DNA of 42,135 nucleotides, taken from a virus. The stretch spans positions 1 through 42,135 of the IMG/VR virus record IMGVR_UViG_3300037156_000077. One strand, given 5' to 3'. The notes below the pieces were generated by a model. The model saw only the letters and a list, made by a program, of their open reading frames with translations, was not told the origin of the DNA and searched no databases. The translations under genes were made by a program, and so were the position numbers. Of the stretch, positions 9,207-40,325 are shown piece by piece. Numbering within the stretch: the stretch's first letter is position 1; every line of letters begins with the position of its first letter.

Positions 9207-9234
9207 TTGCGTTCTGCTCGCGGTCGCTCAGAGT
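9207..9234 (+). promoter_or_regulatory. Candidate promoter of a structured RNA, TTGCGT-16-CAGAGT
   Basis: Plus strand: TTGCGT at 9207-9212, CAGAGT at 9229-9234, spacer 16. Individually weak, but it has the spacing shared by the other candidates, starts just before a row of hairpins and is divergent from the tRNA promoter. Confidence 0.35.
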
Positions 9235-9240
9235 CCCCAC

Positions 9241-9340
9241 GGCCAGAGATGGCCGATCCTGACTGGAAATCGGGGTGCAAGTGCCGATTTTGTCAGGGTA
9301 CAATGGGCCGCTCGTTTTCCAGTCACGAGCGGCCTTTTTT
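9241..9340 (+). ncRNA. Structured leader or small RNA with loop-complementary terminator (element A)
   Basis: Three hairpins follow one another: GGCC/GGCC at 9241-9254; CCTGAC/GTCAGG enclosing AAATCGG/CCGATTT at 9258-9297; and a terminator at 9306-9340. The terminator loop bases 9316-9325 (TTTCCAGTCA) are perfectly complementary to 9260-9269 (TGACTGGAAA) in the second hairpin. The two structures could therefore exclude each other or form a pseudoknot. The gene at 9369 starts 29 bases after the U-run, so this may be an attenuator, or it may be a free RNA of about 100 bases. Confidence 0.5.
9306..9340 (+). terminator. Intrinsic terminator
   Basis: Perfect nine-base stem GGCCGCTCG/CGAGCGGCC, 11-base loop and six T. 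It acts on the plus strand only; the minus-strand side has no T-run after the stem. Confidence 0.8.
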
Positions 9341-9368
9341 GTGCCCTGATCCTTAAACGCCAGGAAAT

Positions 9369-9575
9369 ATGAAAACACTGTCATCGCAAAAACGTGTGTA
9401 CGAGCCGAGATACTGGATCGGCCCTACCGGCAAAAAGTCTCCTTGCCGTGGCGAGGAGAGGCGCACCAGCAAAGAGGCTGAGGCCGATATTGAGCGATGG
9501 AAAAAGATTTTCGTCAGTTCCGATTTCGACTATGAGATTGTCGTTAGGACTGAATCAGTTTTTGCCATCCAGTAG
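9369..9575 (+). CDS. Small basic protein on the plus strand, 68 aa
   Basis: Starts MKTLSSQKRVYEPRYWIGPT and has a basic central part (GKKSPCRGEERRTSKEAEAD) and a beta-like end (DYEIVVRTESVFAI). AGGAAAT lies just before the ATG. It faces against both flanking operons and sits 29 bases after a strong terminator, so its expression would depend on read-through or on the structure of the leader. No family recognised. Confidence 0.5.
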   Translation: MKTLSSQKRVYEPRYWIGPTGKKSPCRGEERRTSKEAEADIERWKKIFVSSDFDYEIVVRTESVFAIQ

Positions 9576-9577
9576 CC

Positions 9578-9652
9578 ATGAGCCGCACCACAAAACACCC
9601 CTACCGGAAGTCAGGCTTGACAACGCCAAACAATGTCAGACACTGCCGTTGA
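9578..9652 (+). CDS. Possible mini-protein, 24 aa
   Basis: ATG two bases after the previous stop opens a 24-codon frame (MSRTTKHPYRKSGLTTPNNV...). It is basic and could be translated by coupling. A promoter-like pair lies inside it. Evidence is weak. Confidence 0.2.
   Translation: MSRTTKHPYRKSGLTTPNNVRHCR
9617..9644 (+). promoter_or_regulatory. Candidate promoter, TTGACA-16-GACACT
   Basis: Perfect -35 box TTGACA at 9617-9622 with a GACACT box at 9639-9644, spacer 16. A transcript would start near 9651, just before the inverted repeat at 9658. Confidence 0.35.
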
Positions 9653-9657
9653 GTACT

Positions 9658-9750
9658 GATCGCCGCCCGGCGCAGTTCTACGCGGGAACGTCCTGAACGT
9701 GAAACCGTATCCAAGAGAGCGGTGGATAAAATGGGACTCGGGCGGCGATC
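9658..9750. repeat. 12-base inverted repeat enclosing 69 bases
   Basis: GATCGCCGCCCG (9658-9669) and CGGGCGGCGATC (9739-9750) are perfect inverted copies. They lie just beyond the 3' end of the 1672-aa gene. No U-run follows on either strand, so this is not a standard terminator. It could fold a small RNA made from the promoter at 9617 or protect the 3' end of the late mRNA. Confidence 0.5.
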
Positions 9751-9762
9751 CCTCTGCCTCTC

Positions 9763-12700
9763 CTACTTCGGAAACTTCACGGGCAGGGACTCGCGCATTC
9801 CAGGGATGCCAGATTGAATCTCCTGCCCGATGGTCGCGGTTTTCCGCCCTGGTGCCGAGTCCATCCACTTGGCAACGTCTGTTAATCCTTGCGGCACAAC
9901 GAAGCTCTTGATGTACTGCCGCCGTGCCTTCGCGCCTTCGTCGTTCGGAGTGAACAGCTTTGGCCCCTGCTCTGCGCCACGGATAAGCGGTGCCTCTTTG
10001 AGAAGTCCCATTGCCGCTGCCATGGTCGCGCTTGAGACATCGCCACCGGTCGGCATCTTGTGATGCACTCTGCCCGCCGTGTTCATGTAGTCCATGGCGC
10101 GGCGAACGGATGCCCCGAACTGCATAGCCTCGATGATGGGCGCATGGGCGAGCAAGTGCGGGATCTGCACGCCAAACATCTTGTACGTCCCCGCTGCCAC
10201 GTCGCCCGGTCGGCGCTTCTCTCCCGGCTGGTAGTAGCCTCCCACGGCAGCGGGTGCCATGAAGCCAAGGAGCATCATTCCCGCGCCCACACTGCCCTTG
10301 GCGAAGTGGCGAAGGATGGCGTCCGACTCTTCCGGCTTGAGGTTGTGAAGTCCCCGGCGCATCGCCATCATCAGTTCAACGGTGCCACGGGGAACGCCGC
10401 CCACGTAGTTCATCGACTCTGCGACATAGTTCGTCCCTACCTTCACGATGGGCAGGATGGTGCGGCCGATCTTCGCGGCGAGGTAGGATAAATCTGGATT
10501 TGTCTTGGAGTTTTCCAACCCTGCAAAAAAACCGTTGAGCGCATCTACGACGCTGGATTTCTGCCCGAAAATAGAGCGGTTAGCGTCCGTGTAGGCTCCC
10601 GTCGCGGCTCGCAGCTGAACCGCTGGCAACGTGCCATCAAGCCCCTGATCCATCAGTGATTGCATACGGTGCTCGTAGCCACGGACAAATTCCGTCTCTT
10701 TGACTGGCCCCTTCAGAGCGCCGTGGAGGTTCCCGGCAACATCGAAAAAGCTGGTGTCGAGGTCGCGTGCGTGCGTCTTGCCGTAGCGAAGGTCAAGGTC
10801 GCTCTTGCCGGTCTTGATGAACTGCCACGCGCCACGAATGCCACGCATAAAGCCAATGGTGTTCGCCTTGGCTTCCGCCTTCAAGGAGAATCCCGTTTGA
10901 CGTTCAGCCTTGGCTGCAACTCCAGGCATGAGCTTGCGGATTCCGCTCGTAGCCATTTCCTCCAGTGGAGTCGATGCCATGCGGTACATCGCCGCCGTCG
11001 TGAGCTTGGCAATAGTGCCGATGCCGGATAGCAGGTTGAACCGCTGCCACTTCACCAGAGTATCGCCCGCCTTGCGCATCATGGAGCGTTCAGAGAGCGC
11101 CTTTTGCATGTCGCGCACGCGCAGCTTCATCTTCACTGCTTCGAGCCCTGCAACGGCCTTTTCTGCGGCTGCATCGTACTGGATGGCGCGAGGTTGGCGC
11201 TTGGAGAAATCGCCAGTGTCGAGGCGCTTTTGCAGCTTCTTCGTCATCGCTGCCGTGCGGTCTTTGAACTTCGTGAGGTCGTCCTTGATGAGCTTCGCGC
11301 CTTCGGTCTTCATCCCCATCTTCAGCATTGCAGCCTTGATCTGCTTCGTGAGATCCTTTGCCTCTTCTGCGGGAGGTCGGCGCTGCAATCCGAACCGCTT
11401 CGGAGGAATCCCGTTGTTGATGTCTTCGAGGCGGGAAACGAGCTTCTGCACGCCCTTGGTCTGCGCGATCTGGGTCTTTATCTCGTCCTTGCTGGGGAAC
11501 ATGACATGGTGATAGTCGCTGTGCGCGTCTCGAATCTCGCGGTCGGTGGCTTCTGGGTATGCCCTGCGAACATCGGCATTCACCCGCTTTTCGAGTTCAG
11601 GGCGAGGCAACGGCTTGTCCAGATTGTCCTTGATGTGAGCCTTGTAAACATCCTTGACGAACTTGCCCATGGGCTCATCGCCGGGTTTGTGGGCGGCAAC
11701 AACGTCTTCCGGCCCTTTGCCCTTTTCGAGTCTCGCTTTCGTGTCTTCAAAGTGCTGCTTCGATGCCTTGAAAATGCCTGGAAGATGATCCCTGATGCCG
11801 TTTCCGAACGTCTCAACCATCTTCTTTGACCATGCCGCAAAGTCAGTGATGCCGCGCGAGATATGGTAGGCCCCGATGATGGCGCTATCGGCCATGTCGT
11901 GAATGGGAAGAAAGAACATTTGCCCGGACTGCCTGCGCGCTTTCTGGCGCGCTTCGGCATCCTTTGCGGCTTGTTCCAGAAACGGGAGAACGTCTTTTGA
12001 TACTGGTGGGGCGTCAAACAGGTTGCCTTGTTTCTTGTCGGATTCGGCCTTGTCGATGGCGGATTGTTTCGCTTTGGCGTCGTTCTGTTCTGCCAGTTCG
12101 CGAGCCTCCCGAGCCTGCCGTTCCTTGTTGGATTCGCTGAACAGATTGAAAGGCTCGTCCGTCTTGCCCGAGAGAAGATCGCCACCGGGCGCTTTCGCTG
12201 GTTCATCGGCTGGGAGGAAATCATGCGCTGCCCCCTTCGTGAGCGATTCCGCATAAATCACGCTGTCACCTTCGACCCGCTGCCGTCCGAACTTCGACCC
12301 ATCTTCAAGCGTTACAAGGTCCGCGTTGCCGTTGTCGTCGTAGGTGATATGAACGACCTTGACGTGCTCGCCTTCGATGTTCAGCGAGTCACCTTTTGCG
12401 AGTTCGTTCGGGTCAATCGCTTTCCTGCCAAGGGCTGGCTTGTTGGCTTCGGTGAAATTCTTGTCTTTGCGGATCGTGTCTTTTTCTTCATCCGCCGCGC
12501 CGGTATTCTCGCCCGTCTTGTCTGATGCGCTCTTGCTGGCCTTGCCGATGGCTTCCCACATTCCGCCCACGGTGCCGTCACCGATGCCTTGCATGTGGAG
12601 GGCTTGCGCGGCCTTGTCGGGCATCTGTCCCGTTGGGCTGTAAATCTGGTTGTGGGTCGGGTGGGTGAGCGCGGGCTTGTCGTCCCAAAGATCACCGTTG

Positions 12701-14781
12701 CCAGCGATGCTGCCGTCTGCCTTGGCCGTGCTCTCCGATTTGATGCCGCCGATTGTGTCCCTGATTGCAGAAATGACGGGATCTGCCGCAAATGCTGAAC
12801 TGGTGCCCGGCTTGAAGGTGCCTTTGCGCGGTGCCCGCCGTGGCTTCGCTGGCGCTTCCGCCTTCGGTTCTATGGGGGCATTTGGCGCGGGTTGTTCTAT
12901 AGGCTTGGGAGCTGGCGCGTTCCGCTTCTGGATGCGTGCCAGGGCCGCCTTGGCCTGCTGCTCCAGTTCGCTTTTGACGGGTGCCCTGCGCTGTTCTGGA
13001 GTCTTCCGCTTCTCTGCCGTCTTCTCCTGTGAAATCTCCTGGTTGACCTGATTCAGTGCCTCGTTGTGGGCATCGCCGCTCTGCTTCGTCTGCTCGTTGG
13101 CGGTCGCCTGTTCCGCCGCTGCTTTGGCCTTCGCGAACTCCGCATGGCGGGCGGTCACTTCGGCAACTTGCTTGTCAGAAAGCGGTGCGCCGTCGTTGTG
13201 AATCGCCTGCTCGCGGGAAAGGATCGCCGGGAGTGAGTAAAAATCATCATCACCCGCCATCATCTTCCGCGCATTCAGTCCGCGCCCCATGTGCGTTCCC
13301 GCGACCTTGCCCGCGCTGTCCACTTCCGCGTGTGCGACGTTGTGCCGCGCCAGGGCGAGCCGTGCGCTTCCTTTGGCGGCTTCGTCCGCATTTGGGTCGT
13401 TGATCACGCTGGCGGCGTTCCTTGCGCCCTCCTGCACGTTGAGCTTATGCTGGATGAGAAGCGCGTTCTCGGTGTCCGAAAGGGAGCGCGGCGAGTTATT
13501 GAGCTCATCGACGAGGGCGTGCCCGGCGTTCGGATTGGCGTCTAGCAGCTTGCCCGCTTCATCCCATGCCGTCCCCCATTCGCGGGCGGCGGGTGCCATC
13601 AATGGCGGCAAACCACGGGCAACGCGCTCTTGATCGACAACGGCGTTACGCATCGAAGTCGCGCCGACGTATGGAGCGCCTTCGCTACTTGGCCCTGGAT
13701 TGACGGTTTGCGGCGGTGGTTCTACGGGTGATACTTCTGGCGCTGTTCCGCCAGGAATAGCATCCTTCCCCACTTCGCCCGCATTTCCCGTTCCCCCACC
13801 GGTGCCATGTTCTTCCGTACGAGGAAGTTCCCCGCTGGCTCCGGTGGCAACTCCGGGTCCGCCAGGAACCATTCCTCCATCTCCCTTTGAAATTCCCTCA
13901 TTGACTGCTTTATTGTTAGCATCGGGCTGCTCATTCCCCACTTTCGCCCCTTCGCCTTTTGTGTCAAGCGTAGGAGCGCCATGCCCGTGCATCAGGCTGG
14001 TGATGATGTGGAGAGCAAGGAATCCGGGGACGTTTTCGAGGGCGGTTCCGGCAAGCTTGGATGTATCGAAGGGCTTGCCGTTGACCATCGTATCGTATGC
14101 CGCGTTCGTAATCGCCAGCGTTGCGGCGGATTCAAGAGGTTTGCCGATCAGTGCCGCAATGCCCGCTGCTGGAGCCCACGCGCCCAAGGGGGCCATTGTC
14201 GCCGCGCCTTTCGCCAGTTCGGGCATAATGTCGCCGGGTTGCGCTGTGCCGTTCGCAATGCCTGCGCCTACGCCTGTGCCGCTGAAGATTGAGCCTGCCG
14301 CCGCATTCTGCGCGAGTCTGCCGGCCAATCCCTCGCCTAGCCCTACTTCGGGGGTGGCGAGCATGACGGGAGCCTGCGCGAGCATTCCGCCCATGCCCGA
14401 AGCGATGGGGTGCTGTTCTTGGTCGAGTTGCGCCTGTACCGCCTGCTCCGGCGTCGGCGCTCCCTGGGCTTTCTGGCCAAGGTAGCCGCCTGCGATTGCG
14501 CCAGCGCCAGCGCCAAGAATGCCGCCGATGACCGTTCCAGGGCCTGGAAACACAGAGCCAAGTGCCGCGCCTGCTTCTCCCCCTGCCCATGCGCCCGCAC
14601 CGCCTCCAATGCCTTCCCCAGCATGTGAGGCTACACCACGCCCGAAAGCGCCAGCAGCGGTCGATTGGGGGGGGGATGGACCACCTCCCAGTGCCGACAT
14701 GATATCCTCATGCGAGGGCTCGCTGTCCGCGTCCACGGCGAACTTGCGGCCATCGTCAAGCTCTACGTGGTATGTGGGCAT
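9763..14781 (-). CDS. Giant internal virion (ejection) protein, 1672 aa
   Basis: The N-terminus MPTYHVELDDGRKFAVDADS is a motif found at the start of many large phage virion proteins. A Gly/Ala-rich hydrophobic stretch (about 40-105, GGILGAGAGAIAGGYLG) could cross membranes. A long disordered, charged middle follows (about 270-950), then a helical region to about 1250 and a more folded C-terminus ending GIPGMRESLPVKFPK. Size, place at the end of the late operon and composition fit an ejected internal core protein of podovirus-like phages. I see no lytic transglycosylase or protease motif. ATG is one base before the stop region of the upstream gene. Confidence 0.75.
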   Translation of the reverse strand: MPTYHVELDDGRKFAVDADSEPSHEDIMSALGGGPSPPQSTAAGAFGRGVASHAGEGIGGGAGAWAGGEAGAALGSVFPGPGTVIGGILGAGAGAIAGGYLGQKAQGAPTPEQAVQAQLDQEQHPIASGMGGMLAQAPVMLATPEVGLGEGLAGRLAQNAAAGSIFSGTGVGAGIANGTAQPGDIMPELAKGAATMAPLGAWAPAAGIAALIGKPLESAATLAITNAAYDTMVNGKPFDTSKLAGTALENVPGFLALHIITSLMHGHGAPTLDTKGEGAKVGNEQPDANNKAVNEGISKGDGGMVPGGPGVATGASGELPRTEEHGTGGGTGNAGEVGKDAIPGGTAPEVSPVEPPPQTVNPGPSSEGAPYVGATSMRNAVVDQERVARGLPPLMAPAAREWGTAWDEAGKLLDANPNAGHALVDELNNSPRSLSDTENALLIQHKLNVQEGARNAASVINDPNADEAAKGSARLALARHNVAHAEVDSAGKVAGTHMGRGLNARKMMAGDDDFYSLPAILSREQAIHNDGAPLSDKQVAEVTARHAEFAKAKAAAEQATANEQTKQSGDAHNEALNQVNQEISQEKTAEKRKTPEQRRAPVKSELEQQAKAALARIQKRNAPAPKPIEQPAPNAPIEPKAEAPAKPRRAPRKGTFKPGTSSAFAADPVISAIRDTIGGIKSESTAKADGSIAGNGDLWDDKPALTHPTHNQIYSPTGQMPDKAAQALHMQGIGDGTVGGMWEAIGKASKSASDKTGENTGAADEEKDTIRKDKNFTEANKPALGRKAIDPNELAKGDSLNIEGEHVKVVHITYDDNGNADLVTLEDGSKFGRQRVEGDSVIYAESLTKGAAHDFLPADEPAKAPGGDLLSGKTDEPFNLFSESNKERQAREARELAEQNDAKAKQSAIDKAESDKKQGNLFDAPPVSKDVLPFLEQAAKDAEARQKARRQSGQMFFLPIHDMADSAIIGAYHISRGITDFAAWSKKMVETFGNGIRDHLPGIFKASKQHFEDTKARLEKGKGPEDVVAAHKPGDEPMGKFVKDVYKAHIKDNLDKPLPRPELEKRVNADVRRAYPEATDREIRDAHSDYHHVMFPSKDEIKTQIAQTKGVQKLVSRLEDINNGIPPKRFGLQRRPPAEEAKDLTKQIKAAMLKMGMKTEGAKLIKDDLTKFKDRTAAMTKKLQKRLDTGDFSKRQPRAIQYDAAAEKAVAGLEAVKMKLRVRDMQKALSERSMMRKAGDTLVKWQRFNLLSGIGTIAKLTTAAMYRMASTPLEEMATSGIRKLMPGVAAKAERQTGFSLKAEAKANTIGFMRGIRGAWQFIKTGKSDLDLRYGKTHARDLDTSFFDVAGNLHGALKGPVKETEFVRGYEHRMQSLMDQGLDGTLPAVQLRAATGAYTDANRSIFGQKSSVVDALNGFFAGLENSKTNPDLSYLAAKIGRTILPIVKVGTNYVAESMNYVGGVPRGTVELMMAMRRGLHNLKPEESDAILRHFAKGSVGAGMMLLGFMAPAAVGGYYQPGEKRRPGDVAAGTYKMFGVQIPHLLAHAPIIEAMQFGASVRRAMDYMNTAGRVHHKMPTGGDVSSATMAAAMGLLKEAPLIRGAEQGPKLFTPNDEGAKARRQYIKSFVVPQGLTDVAKWMDSAPGRKTATIGQEIQSGIPGMRESLPVKFPK

Positions 14782-16848
14782 TTAGTGAACTTGGGTGACG
14801 GACTTGATGCCTGATGCTCCGGGCTGAATCTGTTTGGCCACGGTGAACGTCCCGGTCGTGGGGTCGATGATGTGATGCTCCTTGCCGTTCGGGCCGTCCA
14901 CCTCTTTGATTTGGAGGTGTGACACGTCCTTTTTGGTAGGCGTTGGCTTGTATCCGAACGGCACGATATGCCCGTTTTCATCGTGCTGCATGTAGGTCGC
15001 CTTGCCGTTGCCGTCGTGAGCAATGAAAAGACCGTCCGCGCCTTCGACTGGAACGAGCCCTTGCGGCGGTGGTGCGGGCTTCTTGTTGCCAGCGGCGAAA
15101 AGCTGCTTTGAGTTGATGCCGAAGATCATCCGTTGGTCCTTGCGGTCCTGGATGCCCTGTTCATTCCTGAACGTGTTCCGGCTCTCCAGATTGTGAAGGC
15201 CAAGCTGGCGTTGATAGGCCGCGTTGGCTCCAAAAAGACCCTGCTTCATGCCGATGATGGCCGCATTGCCTGCCATCGTGTCCGGGTTGTGCTGGCGGGT
15301 CCATTCCTGAAGTTCGCGCCCTTCGAGTCCAAGCGGGTTGAATGATGGGCGTACCGGACTCGTAGCAGTCCCCGGCGAAAGAGTCGGCAAAGTCTGCCCG
15401 AACGAACCGCCGTTGGACGATTGCACGGGCGGGCCTCCCGGCATGAACTGCGGAGGGTTGGCGCGAAGCTGCTGCTCTGCAAGAACGGGGTCAACGGCAT
15501 TGCGGCCAAGGCGCGCGTTGGTTTGCTCTGCCAGCGTCTTCATGTTGGCGATAGCGGCAGCGAGCGCGGGAGAGTCTGGGGCAGGGAGGGGCGCGTATGG
15601 CGTATTGCCAAGCTGCGAAGGCAGAAGCCAGGGTGCTTGTGAGCCCTTCATGAACTGCGCGCCGAACTGGTCAAGGGTCGCATTTGGTGCGTCTTGATTG
15701 TTCGACAACATACCCGGCGTTCCTGCCGTTCCTACTGGAACTGCTCCCGGCGCTTCGTTTGGGAACTGTTTCAGGCGAGCAATCTGCCCCGGTGCGTTTT
15801 TCTGCGCTTCTGAACCGTGAAGCCAATCATGGAATGAGGCACCAAGGGCTTCGCCCGGCGCTTGCGTCCAGTTCCAGGCGTCTCCCAACGCCCCCGTCAC
15901 GGCATTGTACCCGCGCTCGATTGGTCCCGGCCCATTGAGTCCTTGGAGCCGTTTAATTTCCGTCTCCGCTGCCGTGGGTGCTGGCGCATTGAGAGTCTGG
16001 CGAGTAGAGGGAACCTGCATTGGCGTCGTCCATGCGCCTGGTTCAATCTCGCCCTGGTCCGGGCGTTGCTGTTCAGTAAGCCTTGCGGTCGCATCGGACA
16101 TTGGCGGCACATCAAGGCCGCCGCCGAAAGCAAAGTGAGGCATCATCGCCGCCGTCTTCGGATTGGGAGTGACTTGGAATCCGCCACCGGGAAGGGCTGT
16201 GACCATTTCCTGTGTCTTATTCGGCCTGCCGTCTGGATTGTCTCCAACGATGGCGCTTTGCCCTGGCATGAATTGACCGCCGCGAGCGGCCTTGGTTGGC
16301 AAATCATCGTCGGAAAAACCTGGATTCGGAATACCCGCAACGCTGCCGTCAGCCTGCGTTCCCCATGGAACGCCACCCGGCTTCCACGGCTGGGCGTTTT
16401 GGAAGTCGTTTAGCGCCTGAAACGGGTCTTGCGGCTGCTGGACTTCCGTATGCGGCCGGCCGCCGTTGCGGTCCATGCCAGCCATGGGATTCATGCCCGA
16501 ATAGCCGCCGCCACCGCCTCCCTGCTGTTGCGGCTCCATCCCTGGTGGAAGCTGCCCCCACGCTGGCTGCTGCTGTTGCTGCGGCTGGATAAGATTACCC
16601 ATGGCGTCAGTTCGCGCTCCAGAGGTGCCGTTGAACACGGATGCCTTGCGCTGAAGCTGGCTGTACGGATCAACGCCGAACGTCGGCATTCCAGGCTGAA
16701 CCGGAGGCGGAAGCATCGACTCCTTAGCCTTCTGCATCCGGTAGTTGTTCGCCCGCTGCATGAAGTCGGGCAACCAAGACTGTCCCGCCCCCGGTTGTGG
16801 AGGGGTTGGACCGCGAGGAACCCAGTGAGCGACGAAATTTGCTGTCAT
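14782..16848 (-). CDS. Pro/Gln/Gly-rich structural protein, 688 aa
   Basis: Starts MTANFVAHWVPRGPTPPQPG. The first 200 residues are low-complexity Pro, Gln and Gly, including IQPQQQQQPAWGQLPPG and six Gly in a row. Later parts have short helices (LKTLAEQTNARLG-like, GLEGRELQEWTRQ) and the last 100 residues look folded (EVDGPNGKEHHIIDPTTG). It directly precedes the giant internal protein and abuts it without a gap, so a virion role (internal or tail-associated) is likely. No family recognised. Confidence 0.65.
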   Translation of the reverse strand: MTANFVAHWVPRGPTPPQPGAGQSWLPDFMQRANNYRMQKAKESMLPPPVQPGMPTFGVDPYSQLQRKASVFNGTSGARTDAMGNLIQPQQQQQPAWGQLPPGMEPQQQGGGGGGYSGMNPMAGMDRNGGRPHTEVQQPQDPFQALNDFQNAQPWKPGGVPWGTQADGSVAGIPNPGFSDDDLPTKAARGGQFMPGQSAIVGDNPDGRPNKTQEMVTALPGGGFQVTPNPKTAAMMPHFAFGGGLDVPPMSDATARLTEQQRPDQGEIEPGAWTTPMQVPSTRQTLNAPAPTAAETEIKRLQGLNGPGPIERGYNAVTGALGDAWNWTQAPGEALGASFHDWLHGSEAQKNAPGQIARLKQFPNEAPGAVPVGTAGTPGMLSNNQDAPNATLDQFGAQFMKGSQAPWLLPSQLGNTPYAPLPAPDSPALAAAIANMKTLAEQTNARLGRNAVDPVLAEQQLRANPPQFMPGGPPVQSSNGGSFGQTLPTLSPGTATSPVRPSFNPLGLEGRELQEWTRQHNPDTMAGNAAIIGMKQGLFGANAAYQRQLGLHNLESRNTFRNEQGIQDRKDQRMIFGINSKQLFAAGNKKPAPPPQGLVPVEGADGLFIAHDGNGKATYMQHDENGHIVPFGYKPTPTKKDVSHLQIKEVDGPNGKEHHIIDPTTGTFTVAKQIQPGASGIKSVTQVH

Positions 16849-16851
16849 AGG

Positions 16852-22452: not shown

Positions 22453-22454
22453 AA

Positions 22455-29529: not shown

Positions 29530-29534
29530 AAATT

Positions 29535-32335: not shown

Positions 32336-32539
32336 TCACTGAACTTTTGAAAAAGGGTTAAAGGTCGGCCATGAATGCAAACGCGCTTTCGTCGCCAACG
32401 CGGGCGAGGCACCCCCTCCACCCCCTTCGGAGGGTCTGGAGCCATGGTCCGCGCTAGGTCCTGACCCATAATCGCCAGACTCACGCTTGAGAGGTTCGGC
32501 AGCATCGTTACCACTAGCTATGGAATGCGTGTTACTCAT
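32336..32539 (-). CDS. Small hypothetical protein, 67 aa
   Basis: Starts MSNTHSIASGNDAAEPLKRE, overlaps the end of terS by eight bases, and has a Gly/Ser/Pro-rich low-complexity middle (SRPSEGGGGGASPA). It fills most of the 253 bases between terS and the next gene. Low-complexity codons lower confidence. Confidence 0.4.
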   Translation of the reverse strand: MSNTHSIASGNDAAEPLKRESGDYGSGPSADHGSRPSEGGGGGASPALATKARLHSWPTFNPFSKVQ

Positions 32540-33344: not shown

Positions 33345-33368
33345 ATCTACAGGGAGGTTTACCGATGC

Positions 33369-33396
33369 ATTGTCACACAATGCCGTTGTCTGTCAA
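33369..33396 (-). promoter_or_regulatory. Late operon promoter candidate, TTGACA-16-GACAAT
   Basis: TTGACA at 33396-33391 and GACAAT at 33374-33369 on the minus strand, spacer 16. It lies directly before terS and would drive the structural operon. -35 is a perfect consensus. Confidence 0.6.
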
Positions 33397-33751
33397 GGAA
33401 AGCCTCGGAATCGGGGTGGGATTGCATCCAGTGCGTGGTTGAGCCGTGGGTGGCGATGAGCGGGCGTTTCGGCAAACCTCAACCCGAGTCGCTGTCGCGT
33501 TGTTCTTCGGTCCCCCTTTCCCCCGTTGGGAGCTTGCGCTGCCCATGGGGGATTTTGGATGGGTCGCCTTGTGGTGAGGTGCGCCCGGTCTGACAGACGA
33601 CTGGTCTGCCCACATGCTCAGTCGATCACAGCCCTGGTCGGTAATCCGTTGACGCTGACATGCTGCCCTTGCCTCGGAGTTCGCGACCGCTCGGTTTCCC
33701 GTCTACGGCCACTCCGAATTTCAAGGCCGAGGGCGGCCCTGAACGCACAAA
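33397..33751. other. Non-coding region upstream of terS (355 bases)
   Basis: Open frames here look like random sequence and are not supported. The region holds a short palindrome GTCTGACAGAC (33588-33598), a nearby second GGTCTG, and A/T-poor stretches with runs of C and G. As the gap next to terS, it is a reasonable place for the packaging start site (pac or cos), but no defined motif can be shown. Confidence 0.4.
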
Positions 33752-33781
33752 GGCCCGGAACTGTGACGCAGAGCCGGGCCT
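33752..33781 (-). terminator. Terminator-like hairpin
   Basis: Stem AGGCCCGG/CCGGGCCT with a 15-base loop, followed on the minus strand by TTTGTG. The stem is strong, the U-run weak. Confidence 0.5.
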
Positions 33782-33840
33782 AGGTGCAAGATTTGCAGTG
33801 GTCGGATCGCTCCGCGTCACGGGCAAAACCTTGATGAATC
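33752..33840 (-). ncRNA. Leader or small RNA with loop-complementary hairpin (element B)
   Basis: Predicted start near 33840 from the promoter at 33847-33874. The RNA ends at a hairpin with stem AGGCCCGG/CCGGGCCT. The 11 leader bases GTGACGCGGAG (33820-33810) pair with loop bases CTCTGCGTCAC (33773-33763), one pair being G-U. A small CGGA-GCGA-TCCG tetraloop hairpin lies in the leader. The T-tract after the stem is short (TTTGTG). Confidence 0.5.
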
Positions 33841-33846
33841 GACGCC

Positions 33847-33874
33847 ATTGTGGGGGCGTTTGGCGGCCTGTCAA
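33847..33874 (-). promoter_or_regulatory. Promoter candidate, TTGACA-16-CACAAT
   Basis: TTGACA at 33874-33869 and CACAAT at 33852-33847 on the minus strand, 16 bases apart. It drives element B and overlaps the stop of the tiny ORF at 33871. Confidence 0.55.
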
Positions 33875-33957
33875 CGCCTTTTCTGTTTTGGGAGTCGCCA
33901 CGGGATGCCGCCAGCCTGGTCAACGATGGCCTGGAGGCTGTGCTTCGGTGCTTTCAT
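33871..33957 (-). CDS. Possible mini-protein, 28 aa
   Basis: ATG after CACAGG opens MKAPKHSLQAIVDQAGGIPW, ending in basic RLPKQKRR. A palindromic operator-like site is just upstream. It could be a small regulator or leader peptide; no homologue recognised. Confidence 0.3.
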   Translation of the reverse strand: MKAPKHSLQAIVDQAGGIPWRLPKQKRR

Positions 33958-33959
33958 CC

Positions 33960-33972
33960 TGTGTAATACACA
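33960..33972. promoter_or_regulatory. Operator-like palindrome
   Basis: TGTGTAATACACA: six bases either side of one central base. It lies three bases before the mini-protein ATG, in an intergenic region between divergent units. Confidence 0.35.
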
Positions 33973-34064
33973 CATTTCCCGCTTAAATTAACTCGTCAAA
34001 TAAGCCTCCTCGCCTACTGCCGCCTTGATCCCAGCACAATCCGCAAATAATATTGAATTAGTAC

Positions 34065-34092
34065 TTGCTATTCGTTCGAGAGCGTGGATAAT
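34065..34092 (+). promoter_or_regulatory. Plus-strand promoter candidate, TTGCTA-16-GATAAT
   Basis: TTGCTA at 34065-34070 and GATAAT at 34087-34092, spacer 16. A start near 34100 would make the mRNA begin with the 19-base sequence repeated at 34312. Confidence 0.55.
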
Positions 34093-34099
34093 GAGGCGT

Positions 34100-34330
34100 A
34101 CCCAAACTCAACCACCCAAAAATATGAACGCCACCGAATACACGATCCCCGAGCATTACGACACCAGCGGCATCATCAACGCCGACAGCGATCCAGCCGC
34201 AGAGTTTGCCATCTGGCAGGAGGGTTGCAAAAACGATCCTCAAACCTGGACCGGCAACGAGTTCGACCTCGCCGATTTCGAGGCGTATATCGACAGCCTG
34301 AAATAACGCTAACCCAAACTCAACCACCCA
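34100..34330 (+). repeat. Two copies of a 19-base A/C-rich leader sequence
   Basis: ACCCAAACTCAACCACCCA occurs at 34100-34118 and again at 34312-34330, in front of two consecutive genes. Neither gene has a Shine-Dalgarno site. It is probably a leader that aids translation. Confidence 0.6.
34124..34306 (+). CDS. Small acidic plus-strand protein, 60 aa
   Basis: Starts MNATEYTIPEHYDTSGIINA. It is rich in Asp, Glu, Trp and aromatic residues (FDLADFEAYIDSL). The start follows CAACCACCCAAAAAT. First gene of the plus-strand unit; no family recognised. Small acidic proteins of this kind can be host-takeover or inhibitor proteins, but this is inference. Confidence 0.65.
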   Translation: MNATEYTIPEHYDTSGIINADSDPAAEFAIWQEGCKNDPQTWTGNEFDLADFEAYIDSLK

Positions 34331-34376
34331 CGGCGCTCCGTGACAGGGAGCACCAAACAACGAACCAAACAAAAAT

Positions 34377-34739
34377 ATGAAACTCACTATCGCACCCTGT
34401 CCTGAAGGCTTCGGCCCCATGTCCTATCAAGATCAGCTCGCGGCATACCTGGACGCGCTGGCCTCCATTGGCTACATTCCCTCCCATGTGAACAACGGCG
34501 ACGGCTACGAGGTCACTCTTGACCGTGCTGCCGTGCTTTCCGAGGCGCTATCCTGCGACGAGGCGCACATCCGCTTTCATGCCCGTGCTAACGAAAAGCG
34601 GGCGTGGGTTTACATTGTGCTTGGCAACTCGCCGTCCGAACTCATGAGTGACTACGGCATTGTGAGCGACGAGTTCGACAAGGCGCTTGAAGCTGTCAGC
34701 GATGCCCTGGAACATCGCACGAACCTCTACACCGCCTAA
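34377..34739 (+). CDS. Hypothetical plus-strand protein, 120 aa
   Basis: Starts MKLTIAPCPEGFGPMSYQDQ; alternating helices and strands (LAAYLDALASIGYIPSHVNN; WVYIVLGNSPSELMSDYGIV). ATG follows CGAACCAAACAAAAAT. Composition is that of a folded, acidic cytoplasmic protein. No motif recognised. Confidence 0.65.
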   Translation: MKLTIAPCPEGFGPMSYQDQLAAYLDALASIGYIPSHVNNGDGYEVTLDRAAVLSEALSCDEAHIRFHARANEKRAWVYIVLGNSPSELMSDYGIVSDEFDKALEAVSDALEHRTNLYTA

Positions 34740-34743
34740 CCCT

Positions 34744-34920
34744 ATGAAGAAATCCAAACGAGGGGGCGCACGTCCCAACAGCGGCCCAAAGCCCAAGCAC
34801 GGCATCGCGATGGTGACTCGCAGTGTGCGCCTGCCTCCTGCTACGTGGGAGGTGATCAACGGCCGGCCGGGGAGCGTGTCGGAGGTCATCAACGCGGCGG
34901 TGCTGACCTACTACAGATAG
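34744..34920 (+). CDS. Small basic protein, 58 aa (RGGARPNSGPK type)
   Basis: The start MKKSKRGGARPNSGPKPKHG is typical of many small phage and mobile-element proteins. It is followed by VTRSVRLPPATWEVINGRPG and SVSEVINAAVLTYY, which resembles a CopG-like fold (a strand, then two helices). A DNA-binding regulator is likely. It starts four bases after the previous stop. Confidence 0.7.
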   Translation: MKKSKRGGARPNSGPKPKHGIAMVTRSVRLPPATWEVINGRPGSVSEVINAAVLTYYR

Positions 34921-34961
34921 CCTCCCGCCAATGTAGAGCTTGCGCACTTTCTCGCGGGTTG

Positions 34962-35171
34962 TCATTTCGCGGCCTCCTCAATCTGGATTTGGAGTTTCTG
35001 AATCTCGCGCTCAATGAAGGCGTGTTCACACTCCGCATCATAAATCCTTTTCTGCGCGATTTCCCCGCGCTCCCTTATCCTGCGCAGGAGTTGGCCGCGC
35101 ATGTATGGCGTCATGCCGGGGATGACATCCATCATGACAATTTTCCAAGGATCGACAATTTCAGCCTTCAT
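34962..35171 (-). CDS. Small hypothetical protein, 69 aa
   Basis: Starts MKAEIVDPWKIVMMDVIPGM and ends in a helical, Glu-rich segment (AECEHAFIEREIQKLQIQIE). It is the last gene of the leftward replication operon and converges with the plus-strand genes. Its start overlaps the stop of the 520-aa gene. Confidence 0.65.
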   Translation of the reverse strand: MKAEIVDPWKIVMMDVIPGMTPYMRGQLLRRIRERGEIAQKRIYDAECEHAFIEREIQKLQIQIEEAAK

Positions 35172-36730
35172 TTCCGTCCCTCCCACGCCTGGAGCTTGTA
35201 CCTTACGGAGTCAGCATCGTAGCAGTACTGGCAGTGAGAATCGTGCTTGATCAGCAATGCGTGACTCAATGCGCCACCAGCCTCCGCGATGAGCTTCCCG
35301 GCCTCGGTGAGCTTTTGGTCTTTCCACATGATCCCCTCACAAGCATCCGCATAACCGGTAGTGATTCGGGCTATTTCCGCGTCCTTCTCAGCCATCGCTG
35401 CGTTGTGGCTGGTGGTGAGTCGTCTCAAAAGCGCCTCTACGCCGTAGCGGTCCTCAGTGCCTATCCCGAATTGGAGGTGTGATCCAACCCGAAATATCTC
35501 ACACGCCTGATTCACCGTCGGCCAGTCCTTCGGCGCGGACTTGAGCGCGGCGAGTTCGGCCATGGCTTCACCGTATTCGGTTGTCAGGTTTCCGATTTGC
35601 GCTCGGGCGGCGGTGAGTTCGATGTCCAGCCGGACGGCAGCTTTACCATTATCAAGTGCCTCCTCCTTCCACGTGGCGGCTTCGGCCTGTGCTTCCCTCC
35701 ATCCTGTATTTGCGTATTCGGTCTGCTCTTTTTGTTGTTCCGCCTTTCCTTTCAGCCTCGCGATGGCTGAGGAGAAAATGGCGCGCAGTTCATCCGCTGT
35801 CTCCGCGTGATTGCGTGCGTACAAAATCTCATCATCGCTCGGCATCTCCACCGTTGCGAGGTAGGCGTCACCAGCCTCATGCTCCAGAGTCTCACACAGC
35901 ACTATGAGTTTTTCCATGAGCGTTTGAGGGCTGTCGTGCGGCCTCTCCAATAGGGTATCGGTGCGGGGGTGCTGCCGACATGGACCAAGATTCAACGGCC
36001 TGGCCATCGCGTGCCGGTCCTGGGTTTGATCGGCCTCCAGTTTCAGCGCGGCGAGTTCGGCCATGGCTTCACCGTATTCGGTTGTCAGGTTTCCGAACGC
36101 TTCCTTCCACCTCGCGGCTTCGGTGTCGCGAGCGAAGATATGCCTCAGTTTGTTCACTGCTTCCTTTGTCGTGAGGCTGTTCCGCCATGCGTCAACAATT
36201 TCGTCATCAACTACCGCCTCATCCGTGACCGCGCTGACGGTGGGGAGGTGGGCGGCGGGTGGTGGCGGAAAGTGTGACCAGAAATAATCGTTGATCGACT
36301 TTCGCTCGTCTGATGTTAACGGGTCCCAGTTCTCGATCATGGCCCTGAACTCTTCTTCCGGCGTGACCTTCGAGGCGTCGGGAGGCGGGGCGGGCTGTCG
36401 GTTTTGTGCTCTGGCCGCATCGTGGCAATCAAAGCACATCTTGCCAATGTTCGTGGATACAATACCGATGCGATCATGGCACACCACACATTTATCGTCC
36501 TCAGGTGGCAATCCCGGTAGGTCGGTTTGGGCAGGCTTATCCTCTGCCTTGTGCCGCCAGTGGGTGAATTTCCATGTGGGCGGATTAAGATATTGGCCCT
36601 CCAGTGACATCCACTGCCATTGATCGCGCTTTCCATCACGCTCAATGCCAGCGTCATCCTGGAGCCGAACCTCCACGCCCTCCGGCGGCGGGATGCTTGC
36701 TGGGGTCCATTCGTTGGTGTTCTCGTTCAT
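35168..36730 (-). CDS. Zinc- and coiled-coil protein with internal duplication, 520 aa
   Basis: The N-terminus MNENTNEWTPASIPPPEGVE with a second Trp-rich part (WRHKAEDKPAQ) resembles DUF551-like modules. Next is a zinc-finger-like CVVCHDRIG...MCFDCHDAA block. The remainder is coiled coil, in which GNLTTEYGEAMAELAALK occurs twice, encoded by two exact 52-base copies 501 bases apart. The C-terminus carries Cys/His residues (HDSHCQYCYDADS). ATG near 36730 follows CCAAACAGCACCACG. Unknown function; possibly replication-linked. Confidence 0.65.
   Translation of the reverse strand: MNENTNEWTPASIPPPEGVEVRLQDDAGIERDGKRDQWQWMSLEGQYLNPPTWKFTHWRHKAEDKPAQTDLPGLPPEDDKCVVCHDRIGIVSTNIGKMCFDCHDAARAQNRQPAPPPDASKVTPEEEFRAMIENWDPLTSDERKSINDYFWSHFPPPPAAHLPTVSAVTDEAVVDDEIVDAWRNSLTTKEAVNKLRHIFARDTEAARWKEAFGNLTTEYGEAMAELAALKLEADQTQDRHAMARPLNLGPCRQHPRTDTLLERPHDSPQTLMEKLIVLCETLEHEAGDAYLATVEMPSDDEILYARNHAETADELRAIFSSAIARLKGKAEQQKEQTEYANTGWREAQAEAATWKEEALDNGKAAVRLDIELTAARAQIGNLTTEYGEAMAELAALKSAPKDWPTVNQACEIFRVGSHLQFGIGTEDRYGVEALLRRLTTSHNAAMAEKDAEIARITTGYADACEGIMWKDQKLTEAGKLIAEAGGALSHALLIKHDSHCQYCYDADSVRYKLQAWEGRK
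35544..36096. repeat. 52-base exact direct repeat within a gene
   Basis: The same 52 bases occur at 35544-35595 and 36045-36096, 501 bases apart, which keeps the reading frame. They encode the repeated coiled-coil block. Recent duplication or gene conversion is inferred. Confidence 0.85.
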
Positions 36731-36864
36731 CGTGGTGCTGTTTGGTTGTGGTTGATCTTCGGGCAGGGGTTGGAAAGGGGCTTCACGGGAGGCGAACACT
36801 TGCGGGCAAGTTCGACGAGCACGACGGGAATCATCGCGGCCAGGGTTGTGGGTCCGGTTCTCAT
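36727..36864 (-). CDS. Small membrane-like protein, 45 aa
   Basis: Starts MRTGPTTLAAMIPVVLVELA; one moderately hydrophobic helix then Pro/Asn/Lys-rich tail. It overlaps the helicase stop and the next ATG by four bases each (ATGA), the pattern of real genes in this operon. No function recognised. Confidence 0.5.
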   Translation of the reverse strand: MRTGPTTLAAMIPVVLVELARKCSPPVKPLSNPCPKINHNQTAPR

Positions 36865-38225
36865 CTTTTGAATGCTCTCCTTGGTTTGGTTGTTTGCTTC
36901 GGCTGGTTGTCTTCTGGCCTCCAGTCCATTGGGCTGAACTTCTGGAACTCGCCGGCAAAGTGAAACATGAAGGAGTCCCCACGCTTGCCTTGACGGGACT
37001 TCATCACGCGCAACCGGCGCTGATGCTTCACCTCTGTTTCGCCATCGTCGCCGATGACCTTTTCAAGCCTCATGTGAACGTCACAGTCCTGGTGCGGCGC
37101 GCGTGATTCTCTCACCTGCCCGTCGTCATTGAGTTGGGAGAGAACGAAGCCGGTCACGTTCAGCTTTTTGAATGCCCGTTGGAACTTCTGCGAGGCGCGC
37201 GCCACCTGCTGCTCCCGGTTCTTTGGGGCGAGGTAGTCCAGCTCCAAGAGCGTCAGATAGTCGATGATGGCCGCGACGTGTCCAGCCGCTGCCCTCTCGG
37301 CCATGTCCGCTACTACTTGATCCGGCGTCCATCCCACGGCATCAACGATGTGGAGCAGGTCCAGGCCATCCCATCGCGCGGCCTTCTGCATTCCCATTTG
37401 TTCCTCGGGCGTGATTTCGTGGTGCAGCTTCTCCCACACGTTGAGCGACACGCCGCAGTTGATCGCCATGTAGCGCTGAGTGAGTTCTTCGGTGGGCAGT
37501 TCGGCGCTGTAGTACGTGTGGATCTGCTTGTGCTCGATCAGGCATGATGACAGGTTTTGGACAAAGGCGCTTTTGCCATCGCTCGGGCCACCTGAAATCA
37601 GCCAGTACTTCTGCCGCTTGATTCCCGGCGTCACGGCGTTGATCTGCGGGAACTGGGTCTGAATGCCGAGCGACTTCGGCTGTCCAAACACGTCGATCAA
37701 TTCCATGAAGGCGCTTCGCAGTGTCACGGCTTCCCGCGCGGTGCCGCTGTGGATGCTCACCAGGGCCTCCACGCCGCTTCCGATCAGACTGGCTGCGTCT
37801 GGAGCCTCGGGAGCGAGGTTGAGCGCGTTCACGGCGGTTGTGAGGCCCGCGGTGTAAATCTGCCGCTTGGCGTGGCAGAGTCGCAGGCTGTCGGAGTAGA
37901 AGCCGATCATGCCCGGGTCAGTGTAGGCTACAGCGAGCACAGCCAGGGATGCTGAGTGATCCGGCATCAACCGGGTCACGGACTGCCATTCCACGGCCCC
38001 GGTTGAACCGAACACCCGCTGCGCCACCTCGTAGGCCTCCCGGTGAAACGGCGTCCAGAATAGTTCAGCCGGCAGCGCCATGACCTTTTCCTTGGCGCGG
38101 CGGTCGGCAAAGTCCAGGGAGGCGAGCGCAACGGCCAAAAGCGCTTCCTCTGCCCGGAAGTCTTCCGGCAGGCTGGAGTTCACCCGGGCAATGAGGTCCG
38201 GGATGGTGGGAGGTTTGGGAGTCAT
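36861..38225 (-). CDS. Replicative DNA helicase, DnaB-like
   Basis: A 454-aa protein. Walker A SGGPSDGKSAF (about 211-221), Walker B AAIIDYLTLLEL near 320, and VLSQLNDDGQVRES near 361 form the RecA-like ATPase of DnaB-type ring helicases, here with an N-terminal helical domain (EEALLAVALASLDFADRRAK). It unwinds the replication fork and needs a primase or loader; the DUF1376 gene just upstream may help load it. ATG 38225 overlaps the previous stop (ATGA). Confidence 0.9.
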   Translation of the reverse strand: MTPKPPTIPDLIARVNSSLPEDFRAEEALLAVALASLDFADRRAKEKVMALPAELFWTPFHREAYEVAQRVFGSTGAVEWQSVTRLMPDHSASLAVLAVAYTDPGMIGFYSDSLRLCHAKRQIYTAGLTTAVNALNLAPEAPDAASLIGSGVEALVSIHSGTAREAVTLRSAFMELIDVFGQPKSLGIQTQFPQINAVTPGIKRQKYWLISGGPSDGKSAFVQNLSSCLIEHKQIHTYYSAELPTEELTQRYMAINCGVSLNVWEKLHHEITPEEQMGMQKAARWDGLDLLHIVDAVGWTPDQVVADMAERAAAGHVAAIIDYLTLLELDYLAPKNREQQVARASQKFQRAFKKLNVTGFVLSQLNDDGQVRESRAPHQDCDVHMRLEKVIGDDGETEVKHQRRLRVMKSRQGKRGDSFMFHFAGEFQKFSPMDWRPEDNQPKQTTKPRRAFKR

Positions 38226-38965
38226 CCGAGGTTGATGGGCCACTGGGATTTTTCGACTCGGCGGCCATTCGCCCCTGTTTTGTTGTCATACTGGCCTTCC
38301 ATGACCTTCGGGAGGGTTTTAGGTGCGATGAACCAGTCAAACCCGGCCTTCCATCCCCGGTCGTTCTTGCCTTGGCAGAAATCAGAGGCGGCAATCTTCT
38401 CCATTCCTTCGGCTGCGTTGTTGGCGAAAAAATCCTCTTTTAGCCGTGCGGTCAGGATGGCCCGGCGCGCGGCGTTGAGCACAAGGCACTTTGGAAGGGC
38501 TTCGAAGTTGTTCCACTCCTTCACAACCTCATCTTCGAGCGAAAGCGAAGCGCTCTCCCCCTCTTGGTTTTGGTTCTGGTTCTTGGTTCTGGTTGGCTTT
38601 CCAGTGGGTTGCCGCTGGGTTTCCAGTGGGTTCCCAGTCGCAACCCGCTGGGTTTTCTTCGGCCTGCCACCTTGTTTCCCGTTGCGCTTATTGCGCTCTG
38701 CCATGGCGGCATATTCGGCAATTTCTGCGTCACATCGCTTCTGATGCCATCCGTTTTGCTCGCGAGTAAAGAACTCCGAAAGCACCTTTTCAACCACCTC
38801 GCAACCCAGTCGTAACCGACTGGCAACCCGCTGGGTTTCCAGTGGGATAGGCGCTTCTGTCGAGTAGTAGTGATCAAGCAGACGGCGGTAAGCGAGGTCT
38901 TCCAGCGGTTCCAGATGGAGTGTGGCAAGGCTGTAATCGCCGATGTGGTGCGGGTAGTAATGCAT
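38222..38965 (-). CDS. DUF1376-type replication initiation protein, 247 aa
   Basis: The start MHYYPHHIGDYSLATLHLEP followed by LEDLAYRRLLDHYYSTEAPI is the DUF1376 signature found in proteins next to phage helicases, related to primosomal loader proteins. A basic, low-complexity linker (RNKRNGKQGGRPKK...) with repeated PLETQR/TQRVA units follows, then a C-terminal helical part (AARRAILTARLKEDFF). Together with the helicase it forms the replication core. Confidence 0.75.
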   Translation of the reverse strand: MHYYPHHIGDYSLATLHLEPLEDLAYRRLLDHYYSTEAPIPLETQRVASRLRLGCEVVEKVLSEFFTREQNGWHQKRCDAEIAEYAAMAERNKRNGKQGGRPKKTQRVATGNPLETQRQPTGKPTRTKNQNQNQEGESASLSLEDEVVKEWNNFEALPKCLVLNAARRAILTARLKEDFFANNAAEGMEKIAASDFCQGKNDRGWKAGFDWFIAPKTLPKVMEGQYDNKTGANGRRVEKSQWPINLG

Positions 38966-39126
38966 CAGCTTTCCTCGTCCTCCACCTGCTGATTGAAATC
39001 CTCGATAGCTTCCGCCTCGGTGCGGCCCCATCCCTTGGTTGATCCTTCGGGATTGTTGTCATCGTAGGCCATCCAGTCGTTTCCACGGAACGGGATGGGA
39101 GGGAACACGTGTTCGGTGACGATCAC
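38965..39126 (-). CDS. Small conserved phage protein, 53 aa
   Basis: Reads VFPPIPFRGNDWMAYDDNNP followed by GWGRTEAEAIEDFNQQ, a pattern common in small phage proteins ( P.P...DW.AydD...  G.GrTe.EAi.d). Start GTG at 39126; ends TGATG overlapping the next start. It comes right after a terminator hairpin, so its expression would require read-through. Confidence 0.6.
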   Translation of the reverse strand: MIVTEHVFPPIPFRGNDWMAYDDNNPEGSTKGWGRTEAEAIEDFNQQVEDEES

Positions 39127-39133
39127 AGACGCG

Positions 39134-39199
39134 AAAAACCCTCAGTTCTGCCCGCTGCACCCCCCGCTTTTTGGAGCGAGGCACGAACAGAACTGAGGG
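39134..39199 (-). terminator. Intrinsic terminator before the replication operon
   Basis: Minus strand: CCCTCAGTTCTG, 37-base loop, CAGAACTGAGGG, then TTTTT. A perfect 12-base stem with strong U-run. The gene at 39126 begins eight bases after it. Confidence 0.8.
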
Positions 39200-39248
39200 A
39201 TTGATGGGAGGCAGGTTTCATAGTCGGGGTGCATCCGGCTTGATATGT
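39139..39248 (-). ncRNA. Leader or small RNA with loop-complementary terminator (element C)
   Basis: Predicted start near 39248. A 12-base stem (39139-39150 with 39188-39199) is followed by TTTTT. Leader bases TGCACCCC (39233-39226) pair perfectly with loop bases GGGGTGCA (39163-39156). It precedes the replication operon, so control of transcription past the terminator is plausible. Confidence 0.5.
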
Positions 39249-39254
39249 CAGTTG

Positions 39255-39282
39255 ATTCTACCGAAAAGTTGCGTCGTGGCAA
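39255..39282 (-). promoter_or_regulatory. Promoter candidate, TTGCCA-16-TAGAAT
   Basis: TTGCCA at 39282-39277 and TAGAAT at 39260-39255 on the minus strand, spacer 16. It precedes element C and the replication genes. One mismatch in each box. Confidence 0.6.
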
Positions 39283-39283
39283 G

Positions 39284-39340
39284 CTAAATCGGTTTCCTCC
39301 CGGTCAAATCGAAGGCCGGGGCGTCTTTAGGTTTGCTCAT
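39284..39340 (-). CDS. Possible leader peptide, 18 aa
   Basis: ATG overlaps the stop of the 284-aa gene (ATGA) and opens MSKPKDAPAFDLTGRKPI. It ends two bases before the -35 box of the next promoter. Too short to be certain. Confidence 0.25.
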   Translation of the reverse strand: MSKPKDAPAFDLTGRKPI

Positions 39341-40191
39341 TTGAGGGCCGCGCACTCGCGGAATGTGTTTAGCAGGGAATCACGATATTTGATGCGCTGA
39401 GCCTTGACGGCATAGGCAGAGGCATCGGCATAGGCATAGGCAGAGGCATCGGCATAGGCATCGGCATAGGCAGAGGCATAGGCATCGGCATAGGCAGAGG
39501 CATAGGCATAGGCATCGGCATCGGCAGAGGCAGAGGCAGAGGCAGAGGCAGAGGCAGAGGCAGAGGCATAGGCAGAGGCAGAGGCAGAGGCATAGGCATC
39601 GGCAGAGGCATCGGCATAGGCATCGGCATAGGCAGAGGCATAGGCATCGGCAGAGGCATCGGCCCGCAATTTTTTACACGCTTCGCGTGCTTCTAGAGCA
39701 CTCGCCTTATCGGTGATAGGGGCTAGTGCCTGGATCGTTGCCGCGCCTGCCAAACACAACTCATTCACCTTCTTGATTTTGGTGTTTTGAGCACGCCATT
39801 CCAGGCGCATTGGAGTGAGTTCTCGCACGGCCTTGTCAGCCATAAAATAAACGCGGCGAAGAGTCAATGCCGCATCTCCTCGCGAGTCAAGAAGCAAGGG
39901 GATGAGGGGGCGAAGCATTTCTGTGCGCTTAATGTCCGACTCCCACCAATTGCCGTCATTCAGCCGGATCGCCACACGGCGCAGAACACGACAAGCGCAT
40001 TCCATTTCATCAGTGGGTTTCTCCAGGCACTTACCCTTGCGGAGGGCATCGATTGTCGCAGCCTGAGCCATCACGCAGGCGGTCGTTTTGCCGTCCCCGA
40101 CACCGTTGCACATGATCAGCGGCGCGATGACAGGGTAAAATCCAGCGTAGGCCGGGAGGGATTCGGATTCGTTGCGTATTTCGTTTTTCAT
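39337..40191 (-). CDS. Protein with (Ala-Ser/Asp/Tyr)n repeat, 284 aa
   Basis: The N-terminal two thirds form a conserved-looking domain (VIAPLIMCNGVGDGKTTACV; ECACRVLRRVAIRLNDG; LRPLIPLLLDSRGDAALTL) that I associate with a phage protein family, not with a P-loop ATPase despite GDGKTT. From about residue 190 to 275 it is almost all Ala alternating with Ser, Asp or Tyr, built from GCC followed by TCT, GAT or TAT. A short normal tail (IKYRDSLLNTFRECAALK) ends it. Function unknown; the repeat may form fibres. Confidence 0.75.
   Translation of the reverse strand: MKNEIRNESESLPAYAGFYPVIAPLIMCNGVGDGKTTACVMAQAATIDALRKGKCLEKPTDEMECACRVLRRVAIRLNDGNWWESDIKRTEMLRPLIPLLLDSRGDAALTLRRVYFMADKAVRELTPMRLEWRAQNTKIKKVNELCLAGAATIQALAPITDKASALEAREACKKLRADASADAYASAYADAYADASADAYASASASAYASASASASASASASADADAYAYASAYADAYASAYADAYADASAYAYADASAYAVKAQRIKYRDSLLNTFRECAALK
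39410..39662. repeat. Hexanucleotide repeat GGCAGA/GGCATA/GGCATC
   Basis: About 42 contiguous six-base units on the plus strand, varying only in the last two bases. On the minus strand each is GCC plus TCT, TAT or GAT. The array is free of other codons. Confidence 0.9.
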
Positions 40192-40197
40192 GATCAA

Positions 40198-40237
40198 TAA
40201 AAAGCCCCCTCCAAATCGGGCCTGATCTGGAGAGGGC
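40198..40237 (-). terminator. Intrinsic terminator before the repeat-protein gene
   Basis: Minus strand: GCCCTCTCCAGAT pairs with ATTTGGAGGGGGC (13 pairs including wobble), eight-base loop, then TTTTTATT. The 284-aa gene starts immediately after. Confidence 0.75.
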
Positions 40238-40291
40238 GGGAATGCTTTCTGACTCTGGCGGAATAACTCCAGGCCCGGAGTCAGTTCGCAT
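40201..40291 (-). ncRNA. Leader or small RNA with kissing hairpins (element D)
   Basis: From a predicted start near 40291 the first hairpin is CTGACTC/GAGTCAG, whose loop carries CGGGCCTG (40277-40270). The terminator hairpin's whole eight-base loop is CAGGCCCG (40224-40217), its exact complement. The T-run TTTTTATT follows and the 284-aa gene starts nine bases later. This fits a kissing-loop attenuator or a small RNA. Confidence 0.5.
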
Positions 40292-40297
40292 TTGATG

Positions 40298-40325
40298 ATT
40301 GTACCCATCCGGCGCGCGGCGGCAA
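40298..40325 (-). promoter_or_regulatory. Promoter candidate, TTGCCG-16-TACAAT
   Basis: TTGCCG at 40325-40320 and TACAAT at 40303-40298 on the minus strand, spacer 16. It precedes element D. Confidence 0.6.

Follow-up and report, generated by a model that had tools for sequence, protein, structure and literature searches.

Candidate small phage RNAs whose terminator loops match their own leaders

The phage genome and its relatives

The window considered here is the whole of a 42,135-base stretch of DNA (IMG/VR record IMGVR_UViG_3300037156_000077), in which capsid, terminase and DnaB-type genes are present and, as read by eye, nearly all of the larger genes are on the minus strand. Among annotated phages, C75C1 is the closest, with 25% for the terminase and 29% for the capsid, and window bases 1-25000 gave zero DNA matches to annotated phages. 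Searches via DnaB, or via the terminase alone, found no close relatives of the window phage. Ranked by terminase, the nearest is L003 (63%), a 6.4-kb piece whose DNA matches are confined to the portal and terminase region. One related terminase occurs in an Opitutae genome assembly, so a verrucomicrobial host is possible for the window phage.

The start of the window (1-124) reappears at 41895-42018 (98%), and a stretch of 127 bases (41784-41910) is repeated at the very end of the window (to 42135), duplicating part of a reading frame. These repeats point to a genome that is circular or permuted, or to an assembly join. In the gene at 39337-40191, the 6-base units GGCATA, GGCATC and GGCAGA are repeated in a long run that gives an Ala-Ser/Tyr/Asp repeat protein; a second frame is also open there, with a Met-Pro-Leu repeat. 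A tRNA-Met gene (9091-9162, minus strand) adjoins the first of the four sites described below, site A.

Four sites with matching leader and terminator segments

At each of the four sites, a leader segment (K1) is complementary to a segment (K2) of a terminator or terminator-like hairpin downstream of it (Table 1). The sites and their pairings of 10, 11 (including one G-U), 8 and 8 bases at A, B, C and D, respectively, were described in an initial annotation of this DNA, and the sequences exist as written. The 10-mer of site A and its complement are found nowhere else in the window. Site B failed a strict terminator scan because its T-tract is weak (CCTTTGTG). At site C, K2 lies inside the inner stem of the long hairpin and not in a free loop.

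Table 1. Positions and strands of the sequence features that make up sites A to D in the window
Site	Feature	Position	Strand	Sequence or remark
A	Leader hairpin	9253..9273	+	CCGAT-CCTGACTGGAA-ATCGG; candidate hairpin, loop would carry K1
A	K1	9260-9269	+	TGACTGGAAA; candidate kissing segment in leader loop
A	Spacer motif	9292..9296	+	GTCAG; 18 nt after K1; post hoc motif
A	Terminator hairpin	9305..9335	+	11 bp, loop TTTCCAGTC, then TTTTT
A	K2	9316-9325	+	TTTCCAGTCA; terminator loop
B	Promoter-like pair	33847..33874	-	TTGACA-16-CACAAT
B	Leader K1	33810..33820	-	GTGACGCGGAG
B	Terminator-like hairpin	33752..33780	-	Weak T-tract
B	K2	33773-33763	-	CTCTGCGTCAC
C	Promoter-like pair	39255..39282	-	TTGCCA-16-TAGAAT
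C	Leader K1	39226..39233	-	TGCACCCC; weakest case of the four
C	Terminator hairpin	39139..39199	-	Long, dG -38.9, then TTTTT
C	K2	39163-39156	-	GGGGTGCA; pairs 8 bp with K1
D	Promoter-like pair	40298..40325	-	TTGCCG-16-TACAAT
D	Leader hairpin	40266..40281	-	ACTCC-GGGCCT-GGAGT; candidate hairpin
D	K1	40277-40270	-	CGGGCCTG; 8 bp with K2
D	Spacer motif	40249..40253	-	GTCAG; 16 nt after K1; post hoc motif
D	Terminator hairpin	40204..40237	-	14 bp, loop AGGCCC, then TTTTT
D	K2	40224-40217	-	CAGGCCCG; start codon of next gene close downstream

Complementarity was compared with that of 2000 dinucleotide-shuffled versions of the 100-nt leader. Site A (p=0.001), site B (0/2000, p<0.0005) and site D (p=0.003) exceed chance, but site C by itself does not (p=0.0755, or p=0.028 with the spacer restricted to 24-52 nt), so the original argument from four non-chance matches out of four stands for three of them. 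The promoter-like pair with 16 bases between its boxes, said to be shared by all the sites, was likewise found at B, C and D but not at A, where the '-10' is CAGAGT and the best nearby pair scores 8/12 with an 18-base spacer. The pattern TTGNCN-16-NANAAT occurs 4 times in the window against 1.02 expected. Its fourth copy (TTGACA-16-GACAAT, 33396-33369, minus strand) lies just before the small terminase gene and is without a kissing terminator.

K1 is separated from the terminator by 35 nt at A, 29 nt at B, 26 nt at C and 32 nt at D. These spacers are similar to the 28-51 nt measured in the relatives described below and fall within the 25-54 nt of the relatives' plan. The four loop pairs of the window are mutually orthogonal, each matching its own partner over 7-10 bp and the others over at most 4 bp. 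A hairpin with K1 in its loop can be drawn at A and D, but it is not the predicted minimum fold; in the predicted folds of both sites a longer leader hairpin masks K1. Exposing K1 would cost about 10 kcal/mol and the duplex would return 13-16, which leaves the kiss just modestly favoured at these two sites. In most relatives the gain from the duplex outweighs the cost of folding; the margin is smaller at A and D, and in L219 gain and cost are about equal.

A similar design in distant phages

The survey set comprised 40 stretches from capsid or terminase relatives together with the window. Within it, the clean terminators with a loop-leader match at p<0.02 were those of sites A and D, a weak hairpin in L173 and one RNA of G014-G016. 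Whole records of the capsid relatives contained no convincing element outside G014-G016. The RNA of G015 and G016 has the leader hairpin GCTG-GGTAGAAG-CAGC and the terminator loop CTTCTACC; that of G014 has GGTAAGAG with CTCTTACC, a double change on both sides relative to the other two. More contigs were gathered by scanning with the exonuclease that neighbours the relatives' RNA; the relatives that carry this RNA are distant kin of the window phage by capsid protein or by those kin's exonuclease.

The syntenic RNA of these relatives has a plan of hairpin, 25-54 nt spacer and terminator hairpin, with 7-8 bp of loop-loop pairing. This common plan, with differing loops, was found in L184/L185/L187, in L215, L217 and L219, and in L227, L228, L230, L232, L292, L295, L297 and L300. 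Furthermore, the orthologues located through homology alone (L231, L298, L299, L218 and L220; five places and four distinct RNAs, as the RNA of L220 is identical to that of L218) are all matched, and their sequences differ.

Carriers of A-D themselves were found among close relatives by none of the DnaB, terminase and DUF1376 routes; the DUF1376 relatives (nearest 71%) have 49 terminators, 0 of them with p<=0.01. Verrucomicrobiota genomes that contain a related exonuclease or terminase yielded 27 terminators, 0 of them with p<=0.05. A scan of IMG/VR with the L185 hairpin pattern returned only the same three contigs and unrelated matches.

Two further features were seen in these contigs. A block of about 60 bases (GAGCGACC..CTAACAG..GAGTCC) lies downstream of the terminator, within L185 14276-14383 and at matching places in L181, L216 and L217. 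It is conserved across phages with differing RNA loops, and its opposite strand may code for a short peptide. In L217 (7002-7038) and L215 (6446-6482), a second terminator with the loop AATTTG has a complementary leader segment. This candidate pairing (AATTTGG) was set aside as evidence, since it is near-unchanged in both phages and proves nothing.

Covariation and divergence of the paired loops

Compensating change in the two loops was assessed in compact alignments that were hand-cut at the loops, and kinship among rows inflates such scores. MAFFT put L292/L300 in the wrong place when 13 compact rows were aligned; the covariation count used 11 rows. In these, all eight kissing pairs (8/8) vary on both sides and 93% of kissing cells are paired, with a covariation score of 0.659 against 0.176 when shuffled and at most 0.135 when slid. 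Over 13 sequences, 98/104 kissing cells are Watson-Crick with zero G-U, and loops match their own partner at 7.5/8 positions compared with 3.6/8 for swapped partners, a difference reached in 0/200000 permutations. Most alignment rows were first noticed through complementarity, a circularity that the homology-only rows and the slid control partly answer.

Terminators at large behave differently: 3/172 other distinct terminators reach 7 bp and 0/172 reach 8. A loose genome-wide kissing scan was noisy (26 distinct matches against 9 and 23 in two controls), and the case therefore rests on strong terminators and orthologues. Loop-loop pairing is, on these alignments, under selection in the RNA family of the distant phages. 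The proposal that selection acts on the pairing between loop and leader is in this way supported for the design, the covariance check suggested with it having shown compensating loop changes at all eight positions when run on the RNA of distant kin, homology-only orthologues included.

The relatives' loops change quickly while staying matched. In six independent pairs of relatives, loop-1 differs at 14/48 positions compared with 32/420 in the leader (p=5e-5), which is about four times faster, and with 31/268 in the spacer (p=0.003).

Interpretation and alternatives

A GTYAG motif lies in the spacer of 8/15 relatives, 14-22 nt after K1, and GTCAG is present at A and D (2/4 window sites, p=0.02); in both counts the motif was chosen after looking. 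The shared plan, the spacing and this post hoc motif are suggestive of membership of A-D in the RNA family of the relatives.

The sites would then be small RNA genes of about 100-150 nt. Each transcript would have a hairpin on its 5' side, separated by about 25-54 nt from an intrinsic terminator hairpin. Pairing over 7-10 bp between the loops of these two hairpins would either fold the RNA on itself through a kissing contact or link copies of the same RNA to one another. Kissing complexes are known with loops of this size, about 8 nt and 7-8 pairs, so both hairpins could stand during the kiss. The kiss could serve as a self-recognition device, with a loop sequence that drifts or is pushed apart while the match persists, and such a role for the kissing pair is likely.

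As the best explanation, and with reasonable confidence, we infer that A-D are transcribed as kissing-loop small RNAs, linked to the relatives' family and self-recognising. Among the roles suggested earlier, a set of small RNAs fits best, and our best reading of the design is a previously undescribed small phage RNA held by a selected kissing pair. A stand-alone small RNA of this kind ranks first among the readings considered. More tentatively, these may be phage small RNAs of a new class, whose intrinsic terminator also supplies half of a self-recognition device. The terminator loop would pair with the upstream hairpin loop, in cis or from one copy to another, and the pair would act as a fast-evolving identity tag; as part of that same tentative reading, selection would favour loop pairs that differ from those of other phages or of sister copies.

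Recognition in trans is a possibility that we consider rather doubtful. RNA copies could dimerise or form rings through their complementary loops, or a finished RNA could act on its own nascent transcript, so that the loop defines self. Loops that diverge quickly yet match, and the mutual orthogonality of the four window pairs, would suit such a role. There is also precedent in the hand loops of phi29 pRNA, which show the same pattern of paired change (PMC12670572), and in ROOL/GOLLD, which assemble by intermolecular kissing loops (PMC12286853), but no Rfam match to any of these families was found, and spacers of 25-54 nt permit pairing within one molecule.

A cis attenuator is unlikely. Here the leader loop would capture the nascent terminator loop and delay or stabilise the terminator hairpin, and a signal would set read-through into the next gene. 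This idea stays alive because C and D, which lie within a one-direction operon, have terminators that stop 6-12 nt before possible start codons. In most relatives, however, the next same-strand gene begins about 180-360 nt past the terminator and differs by group, and site A is oriented against its neighbours. The RNA of L292/L300 does lie just upstream of a gene for a winged-helix, replication-initiator-like protein (judged by eye), and the longer competing leader hairpins at A and D are switch-like, but a pure cis switch offers no obvious cause for fast loop divergence.

It is more improbable still that A-D are ordinary terminators with accidental complementarity, unrelated to the relatives' RNA: the result for C alone, the missing promoter of A and the missing close relatives would agree with this, but A, B and D are each improbable by chance, background terminators rarely match, and the spacing at A-D agrees with that of the relatives.

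Terminator hairpins are usually viewed as interchangeable stop signs whose loops are irrelevant. An RNA family whose terminator loop is a selected, fast-changing partner of a second loop would define a testable class of RNA for assembly, immunity or regulation in uncultured phages. Moreover, the K1/K2 rule offers a simple signature with which to find more such RNAs.

Comparison with known systems

No described family of this design was found in the open-access literature searched, and Rfam gave no match at E<=1 in the window, nor a match in the relatives searched. The best Rfam score, L227 against the RF02344 ar14 sRNA (26.8 bits, E 0.37), is below the gathering threshold of 58.8 bits.

The putRNAs of phage HK022 are about 70 nt long and have two stem-loops, neither of them a terminator; they suppress distant terminators downstream by way of the zinc-binding domain of RNA polymerase beta' (PMC9378689). 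They share with the present sites short phage RNA hairpins tied to termination control, but at the present sites the second hairpin is terminator-like with a T-tract. Loop-loop covariation is also no part of the put mechanism, whereas here the hairpin loops can pair while both hairpins stand, and the put-like cis antitermination once considered for these sites is not supported.

In phi29-type pRNA, the hand loops vary between phages, and when one of them changes the other changes with it (PMC12670572); two mutually complementary, covarying loops in one phage RNA are likewise seen in the relatives' RNA. This is a resemblance in principle and not membership: the loops of pRNA pair over 3-4 nt between molecules, in an RNA with a three-way junction, whereas here the pairing covers 7-10 bp and involves a terminator hairpin, whose loop is one of the partners, and an Rfam match is absent. 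ROOL and GOLLD are RNAs of phages and prophages, of unknown function, with kissing loops that show covariation (PMC12286853). They are similar in being phage RNAs held by covarying kissing loops, but they are several hundred nucleotides long and cage-forming, whereas the RNAs proposed here would be about 100-150 nt and are without an Rfam match.

Loop-loop kissing with a specificity set by sequence is also familiar from RNAI/RNAII of ColE1. There, 7-nt loops kiss and their sequence sets specificity between related replicons (compare PMC9458437). The ColE1 partners are sense and antisense RNAs of one locus, whereas at the sites described here both loops would be carried on one transcript.
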